NCBI RefSeq assembly: GCF_000526515.1
Contig: NZ_JAGF01000001.1
Span: 1,674,001-1,738,000, forward strand
Length of the DNA: 64,000 nucleotides
Direction of reading: 5' to 3'
Source: Cellulomonas sp. KRMCY2
GTDB lineage: Bacteria; Actinomycetota; Actinomycetes; Actinomycetales; Cellulomonadaceae
Below the pieces are notes generated by a model. The model was not told the DNA's origin. It ran no database searches and worked only from the letters and a program-made list of their open reading frames with translations. Numbering within the stretch: position 1 is the stretch's first letter; each line of letters begins with the position of its first letter. Below, piece by piece: positions 25,397 through 33,357 of this stretch. Both the position numbers and the translations under genes were made by a program.

Positions 25397-26014
25397 TCAG
25401 GTCGCGCGACCGGTGCTCAGGTAGGGCTCGATCACGGCGCGCAGCAGGTTCTCGCCGACACGGGGGTCCGGGTCGCCTTCCGCTGAGTCCAGCTCGGCGA
25501 ACGACCACCACGTCTCGGCGAGGATCCACAGCGCCCGGACGACGTCCTCGAGCCGGTCGTCGTCCACGGCCCGGATGACGCCGCTCGCACGCCAGGAGCG
25601 CGCGAGCCCCGTGAGCGCCGCCAGTCGATGCTCGCGGTTGGCGACGTACGCGGCGTGGAGCTCTGGGTCCCCGTGGACGAGGGCAAGCATGTCCCGGGCG
25701 AGGAACCGGTACGTGCGACTCAGCTCGGTGGCGGCGGAGAGCCGGGCCAGCACCTGGTCCGGTCCGGGCGGAGGGCCTTCCGGCGCCTCCCAGAGCACAC
25801 CGTGGGCGTCGGCGAACCGGGTCCACAGGGCCCGGATGATCTCCGGCTTGTCGGCGTACCAGTAGTAGAGGTTGCCCGGGCTGATCCCGACGTGTGCTGC
25901 GATGTGGTTGGTCGTCACCCGGGCCGTGCCATCCCGGTTGAACAGCTCCAGCGCGCCGTCGAGCACGCGGTCAGCGGTCTGCCGGGCGGTCCGGGTTCGA
26001 GGGGTGCGGGCCAT
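25397..26014 (-). CDS. TetR-family transcriptional regulator
   Basis: 205 residues with an N-terminal TetR helix-turn-helix (RVLDGALELFNRDGTARVTTNHIAAHVGISPGNLYYWYADKPEIIRALW) and a helical ligand domain (RFLARDMLALVHGDPELHAAYVANR). It is the first gene of a two-gene operon with the Tat-exported nitroreductase-like protein. An inverted repeat directly upstream of the start suggests autoregulation. Inducer unknown. Confidence 0.9.
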   Translation of the reverse strand: MARTPRTRTARQTADRVLDGALELFNRDGTARVTTNHIAAHVGISPGNLYYWYADKPEIIRALWTRFADAHGVLWEAPEGPPPGPDQVLARLSAATELSRTYRFLARDMLALVHGDPELHAAYVANREHRLAALTGLARSWRASGVIRAVDDDRLEDVVRALWILAETWWSFAELDSAEGDPDPRVGENLLRAVIEPYLSTGRAT

Positions 26015-26016
26015 GT

Positions 26017-26036
26017 TTTAGAGCATACACTCCAAA
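26017..26036. promoter_or_regulatory. Candidate TetR operator
   Basis: TTTAGAG-N6-CTCCAAA is an inverted repeat (6 of 7 arm positions match) two bases before the TetR start codon. It stands out as AT-rich in high-GC DNA. Position and symmetry fit autorepression. Confidence 0.5.
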
Positions 26037-26040
26037 GCAC

Positions 26041-26071
26041 GGCCACTCATCGGTGGATGGCGTCGCAGTTG
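26041..26071. repeat. Left 31-bp attachment-site-like repeat
   Basis: Identical to 40399-40429 except T for C at the tenth base. On the minus strand it encodes NCDAIHR and a stop codon, but the upstream sequence is not a PPOX gene, so it is the displaced copy. Confidence 0.7.
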
Positions 26072-26178
26072 GTCCGGGTCCAGCAGGCATGGACCGACAA
26101 AGCCGGCACCATTCTCGGTCTGTGAGGCCGGCGGCCGTCGACGGACGGCTCGTCGGTGCCGTGCGCCACGATGAGAGC

Positions 26179-26358
26179 GTGTCTGGTGACCTGACTCTGC
26201 TGCCCGACTACGCCGATCTGCTCGCCGACCTCAAGGACCAGGTCCGTTCGGCCCGGCTCCAGGCTCACCGGGTCGTGAACACCGAGCTGCTCACGCTGTA
26301 CTGGCGAATCGGCGACGCGATCCGCATCCGCTGGTCGGCGTGGTGGACGGCCAGGTAG
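26179..26358 (+). pseudogene. DUF1016 (YhcG-type) nuclease N-terminal fragment
   Basis: The 59 residues contain LPDYADLLADLKDQVRSARLQAHRVVNTELLTLYWRIGDAI, matching the start of DUF1016 N-terminal domains, which precede a PDDEXK nuclease in about 340-residue proteins. Homology stops at about 26325 where an unrelated segment joins and a stop follows. It is a truncated relic just inside the left repeat. Confidence 0.7.
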
Positions 26359-26359
26359 G

Positions 26360-26748
26360 CGCGCACGTCGCCGCCGACCGTTGATGCCGCCAGGCTGGCC
26401 GCCAGCTGCATGCCCGGTCCACCACGACCCTGCGGCCTCGTCCTGGACTGCCCGCCCGGCGGCCTCGCCTATGCCGCTGAGCACCGCCGCCTCCATACGG
26501 TCGTGGCGCCCGGGGTCCAGGACGCGCAGGTATGCGTCCTCGTACTGCGGGACCAGGCGCGCCAGTGACGATGCCCGGCTCCACTCCTCGTCCAGTGTGG
26601 TGGTGGCCGAAGGGGCGGCGCTGGACGTGTTCAGCTTCGCGCGGGCGGGCGTGGGCTGGGTGCGCAGGTCGACGTCGAGCAGGTCGCCCGTGACGAAGTG
26701 GACCTTGTTGCTCAGGCGACCGCGGGTCACGCCGGAGTACAGGAACAC
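26360..26748 (-). pseudogene. Fragment resembling a MobF/TraA-type relaxase-helicase C-terminus
   Basis: Read leftward from 26748, YSGVTRGRLSNKVHFVTGD matches the TRGR motif near the end of TraA/RecD-like helicases of MobF relaxases. A helical region (RLVPQYEDAYLRVLDPGRHDRMEAAVLSGIGEAAGRA) follows. Near 26400 the sense appears to move to another frame (LAASLAASTVGGDVRAYLAVHHADQRM). No catalytic relaxase domain remains. It abuts the DUF1016 fragment and the oppositely oriented mobC. Confidence 0.4.
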
Positions 26749-26786
26749 TCATCTGCTCGGCGGGGGCCGCCACCGGCGGCTCGAAG
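26739..26786. repeat. Left copy of an internal about 48-bp imperfect repeat
   Basis: ACAGGAACACTCATC is shared exactly with 38571-38585 and CGGCGGCTCGAAG with 38606-38618; the sequence between matches with a few substitutions and a 1-nt shift. At the right copy this DNA is the junction of two overlapping small genes, so the left copy is likely a relic of that junction. Confidence 0.6.
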
Positions 26787-26806
26787 CAGGCCTTCACCAC
26801 CGGCAC

Positions 26807-27124
26807 GTGGTGAAGGTGACGCCGGCGGAGGAGGCGCTGCTGCTGCAGCTCGCCGCCGCGCAGGGGGTCACGGTTCCTCGTCTGCTGGTCGAGGCGGCGC
26901 TGTCCGCGTCGGCCGGCCAGACCCCGACGGAGCGGCGCAACGCGATCGCCGAGCTGTTCCGGATCTACCGGTTGCTGGGGACCATCGCGAACAACGTGAA
27001 CCAGATGGCGCGGGCGACGAACGCGACCGGCCAGGTGCATCCCGAGCTGACCGAGACGATGCGGGCGGTGCGGCGGGTGGCGGACCGTGTCGAGGGCGCG
27101 ATCGACGGGTTGGCCCTGCCGTGA
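26807..27124 (+). CDS. mobC: MobC-like relaxosome protein
   Basis: About 105 residues. It has the MobC/ribbon-helix-helix pattern VVKVTPAEEALLLQLAAAQGVTVPRLLVEAALS, followed by AELFRIYRLLGTIANNVNQMARATNATGQV, which is highly typical of mobilization accessory proteins. MobC helps open oriT and position the relaxase encoded immediately downstream (stop and start overlap in TGATG). The start is unsure: GTG 26807 or 26810 are the only near codons, and homologous sense seems to continue upstream through the repeat at 26739-26786, so the natural N-terminus may have been replaced. Confidence 0.78.
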   Translation: MVKVTPAEEALLLQLAAAQGVTVPRLLVEAALSASAGQTPTERRNAIAELFRIYRLLGTIANNVNQMARATNATGQVHPELTETMRAVRRVADRVEGAIDGLALP

Positions 27125-28776
27125 TGCCCAACGTGGTCCGCGGTGAACGGATGGGTGGGCTGTTGACCTACCTGGCCGGTCCGGGCCGGGCGAACGAGCA
27201 CACCGAGCCACATCTGGTGGCCGGTGATGCGCCGATGATGGCGTGGCACGGTGAGGACGAGCTGAACCACTCCGCGGCCCTGTCGATCGCGCGCTACCTG
27301 GACCAGCCTCGCCGTGCGTTCGACGTCGAGGTGGCCGGCGGTCATGTGTGGCACTGCTCGCTGAGCCTGCGCGCCGAGGAGGGGCAGCTGAGCGATGAGA
27401 AGTGGGGGGCGATCGCCCGCGACTTCGTCGACCGGATGGGCTTCGGCGACGAGGGTGGCTCGAAGGCACCGTGCCGGTGGGTGGCGGTCCGTCACGGTGT
27501 GTCGACCAACGGCAACGACCACATCCACATCGCGGTGAACCTGGTCCGCGAGGATGGCACCAAGGCCGGGGTCTGGCGCGACTTCCAGCGCGCCCAGACC
27601 GTCGCCCGCGACCTCGAGCGCGAGCACGGGCTGCAGGAGCTGGACACGACGTACGCCTCGCGTGGGCTCAAGCCGGGGGAGCGAGAGGCGCACGCGCGAC
27701 GCTCCGCGCGGGCCACCTACGAGCGGGCCGCCGTGTTGGGCGCGACGCCCTGGGCGGGGCTGAGTGCGGCGGATCGGAACGGGCGGATCACGGCGGCCGC
27801 GGCCGGCGACCAGCCACGCTGGGACCTGGCCAGGCGGGTGCGCGCGTGCGCGACAGCGAGCGTCGATGAGGCGGAGTTCGTGCGCCGAATGCGCCAGGTC
27901 GGGTTGCTCGCCCGGCCGCGCTTCGCGGACGGCCGCGACGACGTCGTGGTGGGCTACTCGGTCGCGGTGCGACCGACGGCGGGGGAGCGGCCCGTTTGGT
28001 ACGGGGGCGGGCGCCTGGCGCGCGACCTGACGCTGCCGCGGCTACGCGAGGTGTGGCCCGACACCCCGCAGTGCGCGACCGCGGCCGCAAGTGAGTGGTC
28101 CGCTGCGAGGCGCGGCCGGCGGCCGGTCGCACCGGGTCGGGAGGTCGACCAGCCGGGCCCTGAGCTGTGGGCGCAGTACACCCGTCAGGTCCAGGAGCTG
28201 CGCGAGCAGCTGCGGGCGGTCCCGATCGAGGACCGTGAGACCTGGGCTCGGGTGGCCGGGCAGACGGCCGGTGCGTTCGCGGCCTGGTCACACCGGGTCG
28301 AGGCCACGCCCGGCCCGCTGGCCGCGACCGCCGATGCGCTGGCGAAGTCCGCACACCTGCGGCGCAGTCCCGCGCGACCGACGCGCACCGCGATGGCTTC
28401 GGCTAGTGGCGCGGCACTCCTGCTGATCCAGGCCGCTCAAGGCGGGCAGGGGCCGGCCGCCGAGGCCGTCATGCTGCGCCAGCTGGCGAACCTGGCCAAG
28501 GCGCTGTACGACATGCACCGCGCCGCGGGCGACGCGCGCCGCGCCGCGGAGGTCGCGGCCGCGGTCCGCGGCCAGCTCGCTCAGGTTGCGGCCCGGATGC
28601 CGCAGCCCGCCGGCCACGCGCACGTGGTCGACCAGCGCGTCACGGACGCTACGCGTCGCGCACAGCAGGGCCAGGCGCCTATCCAGGCCGGGTCACCAGT
28701 CCCGGCCCGGCTGGACCCGGCCCGACCACGAACACCAGCCGCACCCGGCAACGACCGGGGCGGGCCCGAACGTTGA
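27124..28776 (+). CDS. MobP-type relaxase (MobA/VirD2-like)
   Basis: 550 residues. It nicks oriT and leads conjugative transfer of the element. The N-terminus has MPNVVRGERMGGLLTYLAGPGRANEHTEPHLVAG, and the metal-binding three-His motif appears as HGVSTNGNDHIHIAVNLV near residue 130-145 (HxDxxHIH-like with N-D). The region after residue 250 is helical and Ala/Arg-rich, without a helicase or primase. It is coupled to mobC by a 1-nt overlap. The catalytic Tyr expected near the N-terminus is probably in LLTYLAG. It looks full length. Confidence 0.88.
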   Translation: MPNVVRGERMGGLLTYLAGPGRANEHTEPHLVAGDAPMMAWHGEDELNHSAALSIARYLDQPRRAFDVEVAGGHVWHCSLSLRAEEGQLSDEKWGAIARDFVDRMGFGDEGGSKAPCRWVAVRHGVSTNGNDHIHIAVNLVREDGTKAGVWRDFQRAQTVARDLEREHGLQELDTTYASRGLKPGEREAHARRSARATYERAAVLGATPWAGLSAADRNGRITAAAAGDQPRWDLARRVRACATASVDEAEFVRRMRQVGLLARPRFADGRDDVVVGYSVAVRPTAGERPVWYGGGRLARDLTLPRLREVWPDTPQCATAAASEWSAARRGRRPVAPGREVDQPGPELWAQYTRQVQELREQLRAVPIEDRETWARVAGQTAGAFAAWSHRVEATPGPLAATADALAKSAHLRRSPARPTRTAMASASGAALLLIQAAQGGQGPAAEAVMLRQLANLAKALYDMHRAAGDARRAAEVAAAVRGQLAQVAARMPQPAGHAHVVDQRVTDATRRAQQGQAPIQAGSPVPARLDPARPRTPAAPGNDRGGPER

Positions 28777-28806
28777 GCACCATCCGCAGACACAAGGGGG
28801 AGCGTC

Positions 28807-29772
28807 ATGTCTGAATCCGACGGGATCGAAGAGGCCTTCGAGGGCACGCTGCGCGTCGCCGTCACCGCTGCAGGACGGGTCGGTGAAGAACTCATGCGGA
28901 TGCGTGAGGCGCAGCTGGCACGCGCTCGAATCAGCAGCGAGCAGGAAGGCCGCGAGCTCGCAGTGCGCCTGGACGCCGAGCGCGCCGGCGCCAGGGCCCA
29001 GCTGGCACCCGTGCGCCGCGACGAGTGGTGGGCCGGTGCCGATGCTCAAGCGATTGGTGCCGCGTACGCCACTGCCCACGCGTGGGCAGGGATCGAGCCC
29101 GAAGCTGACCGGGCCGAGCAGCACATCCGCACGGAGCTGCGCACCCGGTACGGCCTTGACGTCGACCACGCCGGCGGCGACCCAGCCGCAGTCAACGAGG
29201 CCATCGCCGCCGGCCTACGGGCCGAGGCCCAGCGGCTTGACCGCGCGGCCAGCACGGCGATCACCGAGGCGCACGCCCTGATGGCCCAGGCCGACCGCGC
29301 AGACCGTGCCGCGCAGGACGCACGCGGGACGGTCTCGCCCCAGCACCAGGCCGACGCCATGAGCCAGGAGATCGAGCAGCGCGCAGCGGACAAGGCTCGT
29401 GCGCAGGACGAACGGGACCTGGCGATCGCTGGCCGCACGTTCCCGACCGAGGAGCACCGCGAGGCCTTCTACGACCGCGAGCCCGAGCTCGCCCAGAGCG
29501 AACGCCAAGCCGCGGCAGAGGACTCGCGCGCTGGTGCGGCACGCGAGAGGGGCGCCACGGGCTACGACTCTGCCGATCGCCGCCGGCAGATGGCCGCCGA
29601 CCTCGACGGCAAGGCTGACGCCGAGACGATCAACGCCCGAGTGGTCGCCGACACCGGCCAGGCGCGGCATCCGCGCGAGGCCGTAGACACCAAGGGCGGC
29701 CCCGCAACGGCCGGTCGCCGAGGTCGCGGCGCCACCGCCCGGCAGCGTCAACGCCCGGGACTGGGTCGGTAG
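28807..29772 (+). CDS. Mobilization-associated coiled-coil protein
   Basis: 321 residues, mostly long charged helices (EELMRMREAQLARARISSEQEGRELAVRLDAERAGARAQL, then RDEWWAGADAQAIGAAYATAHAW, and MSQEIEQRAADKARAQDERD). No enzymatic motif. Proteins with the DEWW segment and coiled coils are common beside relaxase genes of actinobacterial plasmids and integrative elements. A purine-rich AGGGGGAG lies upstream. It follows the relaxase by 30 bp in the same direction. Function unknown; a relaxosome or coupling role is inferred. Confidence 0.7.
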   Translation: MSESDGIEEAFEGTLRVAVTAAGRVGEELMRMREAQLARARISSEQEGRELAVRLDAERAGARAQLAPVRRDEWWAGADAQAIGAAYATAHAWAGIEPEADRAEQHIRTELRTRYGLDVDHAGGDPAAVNEAIAAGLRAEAQRLDRAASTAITEAHALMAQADRADRAAQDARGTVSPQHQADAMSQEIEQRAADKARAQDERDLAIAGRTFPTEEHREAFYDREPELAQSERQAAAEDSRAGAARERGATGYDSADRRRQMAADLDGKADAETINARVVADTGQARHPREAVDTKGGPATAGRRGRGATARQRQRPGLGR

Positions 29773-29945
29773 GTAGCACAACGAGGAGAGCGCCGCCCTG
29801 GCGGCGGAACGGAGTACCACCTGACCAGCTACATCCTCAACGGCTACACCCAGGACCTCCCCACCGGAGCGCCGTCAGTGCCTGGTCCTGAGTCGTCGCG
29901 GACCTCAGGCGCGTCCTGGACGCGCCGCGCCGCTACCGTGGGTGG

Positions 29946-30206
29946 ATGAAGATCGCCGCCGTCGTGCTGGCCGCCGTTGGCGCAGCCCTCCCGATCTGGG
30001 GCGGCCTCGGGCTCTACCGCCGCGCTAAGACTGCGGCCGCCAAGATCCCGGAAGGCCCCGCTGACATCGCGTCGTTCAACGCGATGATGAACGGTCTTCA
30101 TGACCGGGCGGTCGAGGACGTCGCCGCTGCTCGCGGAGACCTGATCCGAGTAGGCGCCGGGGTCGTTCTGTCTGCCATCTCGTCGGTGCTCGCAGCGTTC
30201 AGTTGA
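29946..30206 (+). CDS. Small two-helix membrane protein
   Basis: 86 residues with an N-terminal hydrophobic helix (AAVVLAAVGAALPIWGGLGLY) and a C-terminal one (GAGVVLSAISSVLAAFS) around a polar helix rich in Ala/Asp. Family not recognised. ATG 29946 follows a weak ribosome site. The gene may be cargo of the element; about 170 bp without clear genes precede it. Confidence 0.5.
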   Translation: MKIAAVVLAAVGAALPIWGGLGLYRRAKTAAAKIPEGPADIASFNAMMNGLHDRAVEDVAAARGDLIRVGAGVVLSAISSVLAAFS

Positions 30207-30354
30207 GGCGTCGCGTTCGATGGAGGTCTTTGCGCCTTGTCGTCCGGGCGCGCATCATGCGGGCGAGGTCGCTGATGGCGGCTTCCCGCTGGTCCTAGAA
30301 CGCCGCGCGAGCGGCATCGAGGTCGCCTTCGAGGTCCGGGTCGTCCACGTCCGA

Positions 30355-30855
30355 CTACCCGCCAGTCGGCACGCTCAGCACGCCGCGTGGCATGGGAAGG
30401 ACTCCCCGGTGCTCCCTGCACAGCAACAGCATGAGGTCAGGGTTGTAGCGCTCGGGGTTTCGGATGTCAGGGACGGGTGCGGACCGGTACACCACGTCCG
30501 TGCCGTCCGACACACCGCACTCACGGCACTTGCCTCCGTCCCGCTCCCGCACGGAGTTGATCACGTCGCGACCGCGCTGGACGTACGCCTCGATGTCCAC
30601 TCTCTGCTTCCGCTCTTCCTCAGGCGAGCGGGTGATCAGTGCAGCCACGAGCAACAGCGGTCCACCGATGGCGCTGACGAACTTGAGCGGTGTGACCCAG
30701 CCTGGGGACGTGTCCACTGCGCACTCGAAGGCGCTACCGACGCAGACGTACTCGGTCTCGGTTGCGGCGAAGCCGACGGAGCAGCCACCCAAGAGCAGCA
30801 GTAGTCCTGCAATCGCGAGGGTGATCCGCAGCGCCTTCGCCTGCTTCGTCGTCAC
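30355..30855 (-). CDS. Membrane-anchored protein with HNH-like zinc motif
   Basis: 166 residues starting at GTG 30855. A signal-like helix ends in a lipobox-like LGGC near residue 24. A second hydrophobic helix lies at about 55-75, and a cytoplasmic-side domain contains CRECGVSDGTDVVYRSAPV, PERYNPDLMLLLCREHRG. The CxxC-x(~30)-N-x-CxxH layout looks like an HNH nuclease or its zinc scaffold, although the catalytic His is not evident. Genes on either side are on the plus strand. A defence or regulatory role is guesswork. Confidence 0.6.
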   Translation of the reverse strand: MTTKQAKALRITLAIAGLLLLLGGCSVGFAATETEYVCVGSAFECAVDTSPGWVTPLKFVSAIGGPLLLVAALITRSPEEERKQRVDIEAYVQRGRDVINSVRERDGGKCRECGVSDGTDVVYRSAPVPDIRNPERYNPDLMLLLCREHRGVLPMPRGVLSVPTGG

Positions 30856-31214
30856 TACCTGACCTCTCCTCGTGCGTCTGTCTCCTAGAGCCATCGGCAC
30901 AGCGAGGTGCCTACTCCACTACACGGTCCACATCGAGCGGGACGACGGCTGCACCCAGTGTCCGGAGCTTCCGCGATGTTGATCGTGCGGAGCGGGGGAG
31001 TGACCGTATCGCCCTGGCGCGGCGCGGCCCGGCGAGCTGCGGACCGTATCCGCTCCAAGGCGCTCAAGAGCAGCTGGTGGCAGCCCAACCGTCTTGGGAG
31101 CGTCATACAAGGCCCATACCACGCAAGACCCGCGGCTCGGTCGGTCGTCACCAACGACGTCCGTGGTGACTGCTACGTTCGTTGCCGAGCAAGGATGAGA
31201 GTCAGGGGGTTTCG
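30856..31214. other. 359 bp without a supported gene, upstream of the toxin module
   Basis: No frame here shows protein-like composition. Base composition is more mixed than the flanking chromosome. The last 60 bp should hold the promoter of the toxin-antitoxin-chaperone operon, but no clear -10/-35 pair is seen. Confidence 0.4.
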
Positions 31215-31676
31215 GTGCGTCGCGTGTCGCGCACTACCCAGCCGGCAGGCGCACCGTACGAGTGGCATGACTACGTTGCCAGCGACCGCGCGCGCGTCGC
31301 GGAGAACGAGTTGGACGCCTGTCTGCAGAACACCTGCGTCAACCAGGCCGACTACGACCTTTGCGTCGAGGGTGTCGACGCGCGCAAGCGGCGGGCCGCG
31401 GCCGGACGCCTGGCGCCCTCGAGCGAGGTCACCCCGGTGATGAGCCAGCCTGTCCTGTGGGAGATCAAGTGGGACTTCTCCGACCGCCAACTCCGGCTCT
31501 ACCATGCCGAGCCCCAGCAGGATCCGCGAGCACTCCTCGCCCTGATGTACCACTGGAAGGACACCTCGGGTCGGACTCCCTCTGAGGTGAACACGGCGCA
31601 GAACGCACAGATGGCGGAAGCCGCCGAGCGGTACCGGCGATCACCACTCCACCCGGTCGATGGACTCGACTGCTGA
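31215..31676 (+). CDS. RelE/HigB-like toxin of a toxin-antitoxin-chaperone module
   Basis: About 153 residues. The C-terminal part resembles RelE/HigB mRNA interferases: VLWEIKWDFSDRQLRLYHAEP (paired strands with a basic Arg), then a strand and the TP-containing helix HWKDTSGRTPSEVNTAQNAQMAEAAERYRR, which matches the KxTxxTPxxEIxxA end of HigB toxins. The first 75 residues are an extra N-terminal region with two cysteines. GTG 31215 with CAGGGGG upstream was chosen; TTG 31182 is in frame. The antitoxin gene follows by 57 bp, then a SecB-like gene. Order toxin-antitoxin-chaperone is that of HigB1-HigA1-SecB in Mycobacterium tuberculosis. Confidence 0.7.
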   Translation: MRRVSRTTQPAGAPYEWHDYVASDRARVAENELDACLQNTCVNQADYDLCVEGVDARKRRAAAGRLAPSSEVTPVMSQPVLWEIKWDFSDRQLRLYHAEPQQDPRALLALMYHWKDTSGRTPSEVNTAQNAQMAEAAERYRRSPLHPVDGLDC

Positions 31677-31719
31677 AGCTTCACCCTGCCAACGGACTGG
31701 ACGACCGAACCGCAACCCT

Positions 31720-31735
31720 ATAGATTTGAGTCTAT
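31720..31735. promoter_or_regulatory. Candidate antitoxin operator
   Basis: ATAGA-N6-TCTAT is an AT-rich inverted repeat between toxin and antitoxin genes that covers the first bases of the antitoxin ATG at 31734. HigA antitoxins bind such sites to autoregulate. TATAGAT in its left arm could also be a -10 element, giving an internal antitoxin promoter with a leaderless transcript. Confidence 0.45.
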
Positions 31736-32141
31736 GGCTGACGCACCGCGCTTCACGCGCGACCGCAACACCCCCTCCCGTCGCCGGGCCGCGGCACTGG
31801 TCGAAGCCGACGAGATGCTGCACGCCTCTCTCATCGCCGCTCGCCACGACCAAGGCCTGTCCCAGCAGCACGTTGCCGAGGTCATGGGCGTGACCCAGCC
31901 CACCGTCGCCGCGTTCGAGCGATATGACAACGACCCGCGTCTGTCGACGATTCGCCGCTACGCGCATGCGGTCGGCGTCGTGATCACACACGCCGTCTCG
32001 CGCGACGGAACGCCGGTGCAGTGCGGCTGGGCGCCCGTGTCGACCAGCTTCACGTTCTCCGTGAACCCCGGGGCTACTGCTCGACAGGTCCAGTTCGCGG
32101 CTCCGGACACGATCAAGAGCTCCGTGGCTCTCGCGGCATGA
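31734..32141 (+). CDS. HigA-like XRE-family antitoxin
   Basis: 135 residues. A Cro/C1-type helix-turn-helix lies at about residues 35-85 (EMLHASLIAARHDQGLSQQHVAEVMGVTQPTVAAFERYDNDPRLSTIRRYAHAVG). The C-terminal 45 residues (TPVQCGWAPVSTSFTFSVNPGATARQVQFAAPDTIKSSVALAA) are hydrophobic and likely carry the chaperone-addiction sequence that makes such antitoxins depend on their SecB-like partner. The stop overlaps the chaperone start (ATGA). It neutralises the toxin encoded upstream and represses the operon. Confidence 0.85.
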   Translation: MADAPRFTRDRNTPSRRRAAALVEADEMLHASLIAARHDQGLSQQHVAEVMGVTQPTVAAFERYDNDPRLSTIRRYAHAVGVVITHAVSRDGTPVQCGWAPVSTSFTFSVNPGATARQVQFAAPDTIKSSVALAA

Positions 32142-32614
32142 CAACAGGCGCTGACGTCAGACAAATCAAGGACGTCGTCGAGCTCCTGCAGGCATCGGAG
32201 CTTAGCGAGATCCGCTATTACCAGATCGCCGGCGTACGGGTCGAGCGACCCGACGGTGAGCCCGTGCGGGAGACGGGCCAGGACCTGAAGGTGCAGGTCG
32301 GCGGCGACGCAAACGGCCTTGAGACGCGCGTCCTGATGACCGTGTCCACGGAGGAAGCGAACCTTGCAGCCGAGGTAGGTGCCCTCTACTCCTTCGAGGA
32401 GCCTCTGGAGATCCCGCAACCCGTCATCGCCGAGTTCATCGAGAAGGTCGGCGTCATGGCTGTCTTCCCGTTTCTGCGAGAGTCCGTGTTCACGACCGCG
32501 ACCCGGCTCGGCGTCCCCGCGCCTGTCATCGGGCTCTTGCGCGCCGGGGAGCTCCATGTCGAGGCGCCGGACTCGGAAGCGAGCGAGTCAACGGCCGGGG
32601 TCGGCGGCGTCTAA
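32138..32614 (+). CDS. SecB-like chaperone of the toxin-antitoxin-chaperone module
   Basis: 158 residues with the SecB layout: a strand-rich first half (IRYYQIAGVRVERP, DLKVQVGGDANGLETRVLMTVSTEEANLAAEVGALYSFEE) and the helical signature IAEFIEKVGVMAVFPFLRESVFTTATRLGVPAPVIGLL. The latter corresponds to the PFARE segment of SecB. SecB is not normal in Actinobacteria, whereas stand-alone SecB-like proteins coupled to HigBA-type pairs are, as with Rv1957. It should hold the antitoxin's C-terminus and protect it from proteolysis. Confidence 0.82.
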   Translation: MTTGADVRQIKDVVELLQASELSEIRYYQIAGVRVERPDGEPVRETGQDLKVQVGGDANGLETRVLMTVSTEEANLAAEVGALYSFEEPLEIPQPVIAEFIEKVGVMAVFPFLRESVFTTATRLGVPAPVIGLLRAGELHVEAPDSEASESTAGVGGV

Positions 32615-33130
32615 GGTCGCCAGCGCCGCGACCAGCAGGATGTGGCGTGCAGGGCGCTCGGGGCTCGCGCACCCCAGGCTCCAACAGCCCGACCCGTGGC
32701 ACCCGCCTACATCGGAATGCGGGGAAATTGCGATCAGGGCGTCGAGGACGCTGCCGGACTGCGAGAACGCGACCGCGTCGACCTGGTCATGGACGGAGTC
32801 CAACGGGGTCCGCTCCATTGGGTGGGATAATGCACGGAATCCCGTGTGATGGCCGCTACGGTCAGGTTCCATGGCGATCGAACGATCCGACCTCGAGCTG
32901 GTCTGGCCGGCGCACCTGTTCGTCCAGGAGGCCGGGGAGCTGCTCGGCGCCGGCCAGACCTCCGAGGCGGTCCTGGGGGTGGGGCCGTGGCTACTCGGGG
33001 TCGGTGACGTCGGTGATGAGGTCGGCGAGCTCGGCGCTGCTGGGCAGGGCGGCGCGACCCGCCGGCCGACGCTCTCGGCCCGATGAACGATGAACGATGA
33101 ACGGCGCGCTCGCGTGCCGTAGTGTTGGGC
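32615..33130. other. 516 bp without a supported gene, before the riboswitch
   Basis: A plus-strand frame at 32871-33086 (MAIERSDLELVWPAHLFVQEAGELLGAG) is short and of unknown character; I do not support it as a gene. GATGAAC repeats three times at 33082-33102. The end should hold the promoter of the riboswitch-controlled thiamine operon. Confidence 0.4.
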
Positions 33131-33239
33131 CTGCCATGCCGGGGAGCTCGAGACAGTCGAGCTGAGAGGACGGCCGGGATTCATATCCGGCGCCGTCGAC
33201 CCGTGAACCTGACCTGGGTAATGCCAGCGTAGGGATGCA
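33131..33239 (+). promoter_or_regulatory. TPP riboswitch (THI element)
   Basis: Conserved blocks of the thiamine-pyrophosphate aptamer are present in order: GGGGAGCT, GCTGAGAGG (the CUGAGA block) at about 33160-33170, then ACCCGTGAACCTGACCTGG and GTAATGCCAGCGTAGGGA ending near 33236. The variable arm between them pairs GGCCGGGAT with ATCCGGC. The switch lies 119 bp before the first gene of the thiamine-type transport operon and should shut it off when TPP is abundant. Ends are approximate. Confidence 0.93.
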
Positions 33240-33357
33240 CTGTGGCCGACGTGTGTCGGTGCCTGCGGGTCGTGAAGCCCCTGGGTGTCCCCGGTCTCGT
33301 CGTCGACGTCGCCTCCCGTCGTGCGGTTGACCCCCGGTCCGACGTCCGGAGGATTCG

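Follow-up and report, generated by a model that had tools for sequence, protein, structure and literature searches.

The locus described here raises the question of what decides the fate of an antitoxin whose gene is followed by a gene for a SecB-like protein. The window, i.e., the whole stretch of 64,000 bases that was analyzed (G000:C1:1674001-1738000), belongs to a single-contig actinobacterial genome of 4,495,232 bases, and all positions given below are those of the window. A preceding sequence-only reading had described three consecutive genes encoding a toxin, an antitoxin, and a SecB-like protein, with a 4-nt overlap between the last two, as a toxin-antitoxin-chaperone (TAC) module of the HigB-HigA-SecB type carried by a mobile element, and the coordinates agree with that order (Table 1). 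What it missed are the last residues of the antitoxin, which in this antitoxin family often appear to imitate the tag encoded by the tmRNA of the host. The tmRNA (SsrA) tag is the mark that bacteria add to faulty proteins for destruction.

Table 1. Features of the trio and of its upstream neighborhood in the window
Feature	Position	Strand	Remarks
MobC/NikA-like mobilisation ORF	26381..27124	+	PF21983 E 3.3e-7, PF05713 E 5e-6; true start probably further in
MobA/VirD2-like relaxase ORF	26698..28776	+	PF03432 E 9.2e-14, residues 213-312; actual start probably more internal
24-bp imperfect palindrome, candidate operator	31147..31170	.	12-nt arms, 83% complementary, no spacer, 44 nt upstream of GTG 31215
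Toxin gene	31215..31676	+	GTG start at 31215, 153 aa, predicted HigB/RelE fold; no Pfam, NCBIfam, or PADLOC match
Antitoxin gene, XRE-family, 135 aa	31734..32141	+	HTH_3 E 4.6e-8
Antitoxin C-terminal extension codons (residues 90-135), ChAD counterpart	32001..32138	+	3' of HTH domain; chaperone binding presumed by analogy with excerpts of PMC5105189
Antitoxin last 12 codons, PDTIKSSVALAA	32103..32138	+	final ALAA equals the end of host tmRNA tag ADSKRTDFALAA
SecB-like chaperone gene, 158 aa, predicted SecB fold	32138..32614	+	start codon overlaps antitoxin stop (ATGA)

The mobile setting proposed for the trio is supported, as the ORFs for a MobC/NikA-like protein and a MobA/VirD2 relaxase are found a short way upstream and relatives of the trio are carried by Rhodococcus and Dermacoccus plasmids and by temperate Gordonia phages. 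To the right of the trio, a TPP riboswitch is found at 33130-33253 (RF00059, 56.1 bits), and with the mobilisation and relaxase ORFs on the left and this riboswitch on the right, the trio appears to occupy the right-hand end of a small mobilisable insertion. The genes 3' of the riboswitch look thiamine-related (transport), and the ordinary chromosome seems to resume there. A domain scan of six neighboring ORFs recognized no integrase, and no convincing element ends were found among the matches listed for 25900-33300 (20 direct and 25 inverted repeats). The short ORF 26053-26358 resembles, by eye, the truncated start of a DUF1016-type nuclease; lying beside the mobilisation genes, it is perhaps an older insertion scar. 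Alternative start codons of the toxin gene are TTG 31182 and GTG 31224. According to its sequence, the palindrome at 31147-31170 is a candidate site for self-repression by the XRE antitoxin. No promoter- or terminator-like patterns were detected in 30900-33300.

The HigB-HigA-SecB reading is backed by the gene order, by both predicted folds (strongly for the chaperone, weakly for the toxin), and by a recurring neighborhood, and the order, the 4-nt overlap, and the recurrence among relatives mark the three genes as belonging together. The chaperone model has the SecB fold and finds its best Foldseek match in Mycobacterium tuberculosis Rv1957, and the product of 32138-32614 is strongly predicted to be a SecB-fold chaperone. 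For the toxin, the HigB fold is weakly predicted: the best Foldseek match of a low-confidence model is M. tuberculosis HigB1, at a weak E of 7.9e-3, and the four best rows comprise HigB1 and other RelE/HigB-type entries. The RelE and SecB domains expected from the earlier reading did not surface in HMM searches, in which neither toxin nor chaperone matched any Pfam or NCBIfam model; the members of the toxin family likewise matched no RelE/HigB sequence model, and sequence searches of solved structures with the toxin and the chaperone returned no RelE or SecB match. In L105, a related trio, the toxin does match Gp49 (E 5.9e-15), and the profile-profile comparison of the window toxin with Gp49-like relatives yielded a weak local match (E 0.074) against a mixed set, whose row L029 is not a toxin. 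The trio stands and its mobile setting is supported, but the 75-residue N-terminal extension formerly deemed an unusual feature of the toxin does not stand, since most of it makes up the N-terminal half of the predicted RelE fold. The antitoxin, in turn, carries a C-terminal extension of about 45 residues beyond its HTH domain.

The tmRNA of the window genome encodes the tag ADSKRTDFALAA, to which the tail of the window antitoxin, PDTIKSSVALAA, shows 5/12 identities (score 21), with only 1/8 outside the final ALAA. The search for antitoxin homologs found 179, and the tail tests cover the 120 listed, which are mutually related; 44 of these 120 share at least 6/12 identities with ADSKRTDFALAA. 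One tail, P0093, is identical to the host tag at 12/12 positions, and two more, P0066 and P0089, at 11/12; these three are represented by their antitoxin sequences. In 2,000 shuffles of the tag, a mean of 0.22 of the 120 homologs reached 6/12 or more, with a maximum of 23 presumably due to shuffles keeping an ALAA-like end, and control windows shifted by 1, 2, 3, 6, 12, or 24 residues gave 0 or 1 of 120. Five identities to the tag were reached by none of the C-termini of 15 SecB-like proteins and 11 toxins. Since LAA is a known ClpX signal, the eight residues upstream of the last four were tested alone, and 28/120 tails showed at least 4 identities, against a shuffled mean of 0.51 (maximum 24 in 5,000) and at most 1 in each of 24 shifted windows. 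Single-linkage clustering places the imitators in 19 of 35 clusters at 70%, and all of them in one of 5 clusters at 60%.

In the window, two of 565 ORFs of at least 60 aa score 15 or more against the tag, namely the antitoxin and one short ORF. Among the distinct ORFs of at least 60 aa in the fetched loci, 31 of 3,985 have a tag-like end (16 are tmRNA reading frames, 14 are antitoxins whose gene adjoins a SecB-like one, and 1 is neither), a background which is not neutral since these loci were picked around such genes. A search blind to both tail and chaperone (A4) yielded 20 of 297 genomes, with tag-like tails in the window genome, G606, G596, and G643 (score of at least 15) and in G620 (score 12), and in 5/5 of these the SecB-like gene lies directly downstream. 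Alignment A4 left out L021, and alignment A3 left out P0009, P0011, and the loci L007, L008, L018, L022, and L024. Tag-like ends occur on XRE antitoxins and also on unrelated HicB-like ones (L012 and L106; by eye). We considered whether such tails are bound to a single SecB clade; this is ruled out by the SecB tree of 44 rows, on which they require at least nine changes. In L019, L021-L023, and L093, the tag-like end is replaced by AHA or AHV, a second ending that recurs among the antitoxins.

When each tail was compared with the tag of its own genome, 9 of 33 loci scored at least 15 and 24 scored below 15, while shuffled controls had a mean of 0.10 and a maximum of 3 and shifted windows gave 0, once 1. 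The 33 rows comprise 30 of the 34 SecB-like-positive genomes plus G493, G560, and G689, which show a trio-like order without a SecB-profile match; G084 (no clear antitoxin ORF), G794 (candidate tail ending in VVKNGAA), G417, and G1250 were left out, and no full tmRNA was found in G652 and G513. Among the best matches is G606, where the tail AESLRSDFALGA faces the tag AESKRTDFALAA, and the locus L011, with the tail AESLRSDFALGA, is a full mimic. The tail and tag of G599 (AEYKRQEFTLAG and ADSKRTEFALAA) both have E instead of D, and in G1077, whose toxin is by eye a classical HigB, the tail ADNNRLALGA stands beside ADNNRLALAA, a tag unlike the Micrococcales type. Tail and tmRNA of G1077 agree in 3/10 codons only, an argument against recent copying of the tmRNA at the DNA level. 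G977, whose antitoxin shares 68% identity with the one of G1077, scores below 15 against its own tag. Permuting tags among the ten most tag-like loci gave p of about 0.010 for the score and 0.015 for the identity, with G1077 carrying much of the signal.

The variants follow lineages, with DFALAA in Micrococcales and Y in place of F in Rhodococcus. We found no published Rhodococcus tag in the literature, and the Rhodococcus plasmid tails ADSNQKQYGLAS and GDSFQSSYALAV were therefore compared with ADSNQRDYALAA, which may not be the hosts' own; they share 8/12 and 7/12 identities with it and 5/12 each with the Micrococcales tag. ADSNQRDYALAA is the M. smegmatis tag according to the portion of PMC6133939 consulted, and it is also the tag in six genomes of one class-level family. 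Judged by these sequences, the imitation tends to follow the host tag. The genome G910 has ADNKRTDFALAA as its main tag and a further tmRNA gene, with the odd short tag AKRDFALTA, next to three tRNA genes (L142 1501-1858); this second gene may travel on a phage or another mobile element.

The SecB-like profile matched in 7 of 99 relatives and in 18 of 396 genomes of the order, and a wider profile in 11 of 221 genomes at the family level and in 10 of 394 at the class level, while none of 59 related genomes has a SecB above the Pfam cut-off. A toxin-family gene at E of 0.01 or less is present in the fetched locus of 12 of 21 SecB-like-positive genomes, window included; other SecB-like loci carry instead a pair that by eye looks HicA-like and HicB-like, and in L106, Pfam gives a weak HTH match only for the HicB-like protein and none for the HicA-like one. 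Across related genomes, plasmids, and phages, the SecB-like gene adjoins the same toxin-antitoxin (TA) pair or another one, and one Rhodococcus plasmid relative combines an HTH protein with a toxin annotated as RelE/ParE and a product annotated as SecB chaperone. In the SecB tree, the window chaperone groups with those of L065, which has a HicB-like antitoxin, and of L003 (support 93; SH-aLRT, quick method), and from this grouping with a HicB-serving chaperone, these proteins seem to swap TA partners. The Gordonia phages Horus, Agueybana, Azula, and Suerte (L109-L112) harbor SecB-like and HTH genes between the immunity repressor and the integrase, and 2 of these 4 modules end in GLAA or ALAA. 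Their SecB-like genes are unannotated, and the HTH protein of Horus and Agueybana is HicB-like by eye.

Scans of genome contigs and viral contigs confirmed no relatives of the SecB-like protein, the toxin profile found the window only in 396 genomes of the phylum (at most 9 candidates scored per genome), and tblastn with the toxin against plasmids gave no match. In the loci L092-L101, a toxin-like gene, an XRE gene, and a third gene are arranged as in the trio; the product of the third has diverged to the point that the SecB profile rarely picks it up. In L006 (G084), a SecB-like gene is followed by a second partial SecB-like stretch without a clear antitoxin, as in a decaying module.

The closest known system is M. 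tuberculosis HigB1-HigA1-SecB-TA (Rv1955-Rv1957), which the window trio resembles in gene order, best Foldseek matches, SecB-like partner, and antitoxin C-terminal extension. There, according to the parts of PMC8165232 and PMC9753991 available to us, the chaperone protects the antitoxin, and the C-terminal region of HigA1 holds both the SecB site and a ClpX degron whose last residues are Val-Ala (PMC8165232). The differences are that the window toxin and chaperone showed no sequence-level match in the searches of solved structures, and that the window tail ends like the host tmRNA tag, most of which is copied by the tails of relatives. CmdTAC of Escherichia coli likewise combines a SecB-like chaperone with an LAA-ending antitoxin, which ClpP degrades once a phage capsid protein takes the chaperone; however, CmdT is an mRNA ADP-ribosyltransferase, whereas a HigB fold is predicted here, and the sections of PMC11618068 that describe it make no mention of a host-matched tag. 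SecB-like chaperones serve HigBA, MqsRA, and HicAB pairs, with variable C-terminal extensions described in excerpts of PMC5105189 as mutually dissimilar; HicAB-like trios are among the relatives here, too (L012, L106, and L109; by eye), but in this set tag-like ends are found repeatedly, on XRE antitoxins as well as on HicB-like ones. Genetically encoded tag-like C-termini on regulators are also a trait of integration-dependent immunity in actinophages, where ssrA-like tags, described as short -AA ends, destabilise repressors and integrases (PMC8092301 and PMC5559632, in part). In those phages integration removes the tag, whereas here, by analogy with TACs, a chaperone would mask it. In ParD, an SsrA-like motif lies nearer the N-terminus, as given in an excerpt of PMC6191456.

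Our preferred reading, to which we assign a probability of roughly 0.6, is that the window encodes a trio of predicted HigB-fold toxin, XRE antitoxin, and SecB-fold chaperone, in which the ALAA tail would likely commit the antitoxin to Clp destruction unless the SecB-like partner covers it, and many of whose relatives bear a near-complete imitation of a host-type tag. In this favored account of an SsrA-like degron masked by a chaperone, drawn by analogy, toxicity, chaperone dependence, and proteolysis are predicted. Like HigB1, the toxin would cleave ribosome-bound mRNA, and the antitoxin would bind the toxin and repress the operon. The SecB-like protein would bind the C-terminal extension of the antitoxin, hiding its tag-like end, until it is titrated by phage-made or stress-born clients or by tmRNA-tagged proteins, whereupon Clp would remove the antitoxin and the toxin would be freed. 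The simplest account would thus be a switch of the HigA1/CmdTAC type plus a host-matched degron.

The same locus might be an ordinary TAC, in which only the last two or three hydrophobic residues count, serving ClpX as a generic degron, and the similarity further upstream is functionless shared ancestry. The window tail, which retains ALAA only, would fit this reading, as would the 24 of 33 loci scoring below 15 against their own tag and the Val-Ala end that is enough as ClpX signal of HigA1 (PMC8165232, in part). However, we deem it somewhat unlikely, as the eight upstream residues alone beat their controls, the likeness changes from lineage to lineage along with the host tag, as seen for E in G599, for RLAL in G1077, and for Y in Rhodococcus, and it is seen by eye on HicB-like antitoxins unrelated to the XRE ones. 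A further reading, in which the tail is a SecB-binding sequence that resembles the tag by chance and serves chaperone recruitment, not proteolysis, appears quite improbable to us. It agrees with the recruitment of the chaperone by the HigA1 C-terminal extension, reported in passages of PMC5105189 and PMC6377645, and with the SecB-like neighbors of all five tag-like tails from the blind search. Yet chance likeness leaves the lineage-matched variants unexplained, the tails are not tied to one SecB clade (at least nine changes, 44 rows), and a binding role is compatible with a degron role, not exclusive of it.

As to the role of the trio, the sequence-only reading proposed that it stabilises its mobilisable element. 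The adjoining MobC-like and relaxase genes and the relatives on plasmids speak for this, but the Gordonia phage relatives sit between immunity repressor and integrase, and the E. coli TAC defends against phage (PMC11618068, in the sections concerned), so that phage defense is an equal reading of the role and stabilisation in its own right is doubtful.

Within the preferred reading of a chaperone-masked degron, the upstream tag likeness would ask for more than ClpX reading the final residues, such as a reader of the whole tag or tmRNA-tagged proteins that compete for chaperone or protease. By cutting mRNA on ribosomes, a HigB-type toxin would itself raise tagging, and a feedback is conceivable. 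Speculatively, and at odds that we judge to be low, these modules could be trans-translation sensors in which tmRNA-tagged debris, made in bulk when a phage or a toxin leaves ribosomes stalled, competes with the antitoxin for two partners, the SecB-like chaperone and the Clp protease. Rivalry over the former would trip the switch and rivalry over the latter would reset it, and the tail would track the host tag because what is read out is the quality-control traffic of the host.

A ClpX degron beneath the chaperone in TAC antitoxins, with LAA or Val-Ala ends, is already known from the relevant parts of PMC11618068 and PMC8165232. What appears to be new, on comparison of the C-termini, is their imitation of the host tmRNA tag, near-complete in many relatives; in the open-access literature, as far as its accessible portions go, we recognized no report of a TAC antitoxin with a near-complete, host-matched copy of the tag. 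A review, in the section seen, calls the signal that detaches the chaperone from the TAC antitoxin unknown (PMC9753991), while for CmdTAC a phage capsid protein is the demonstrated trigger (PMC11618068, in part). The imitation gives a handle on TAC chaperones missed by Pfam (0/59 by its cut-off, compared with 7/99 and 18/396 by the SecB-like profile), and the tag-copying tail points to a specific candidate trigger, the load of tagged proteins.
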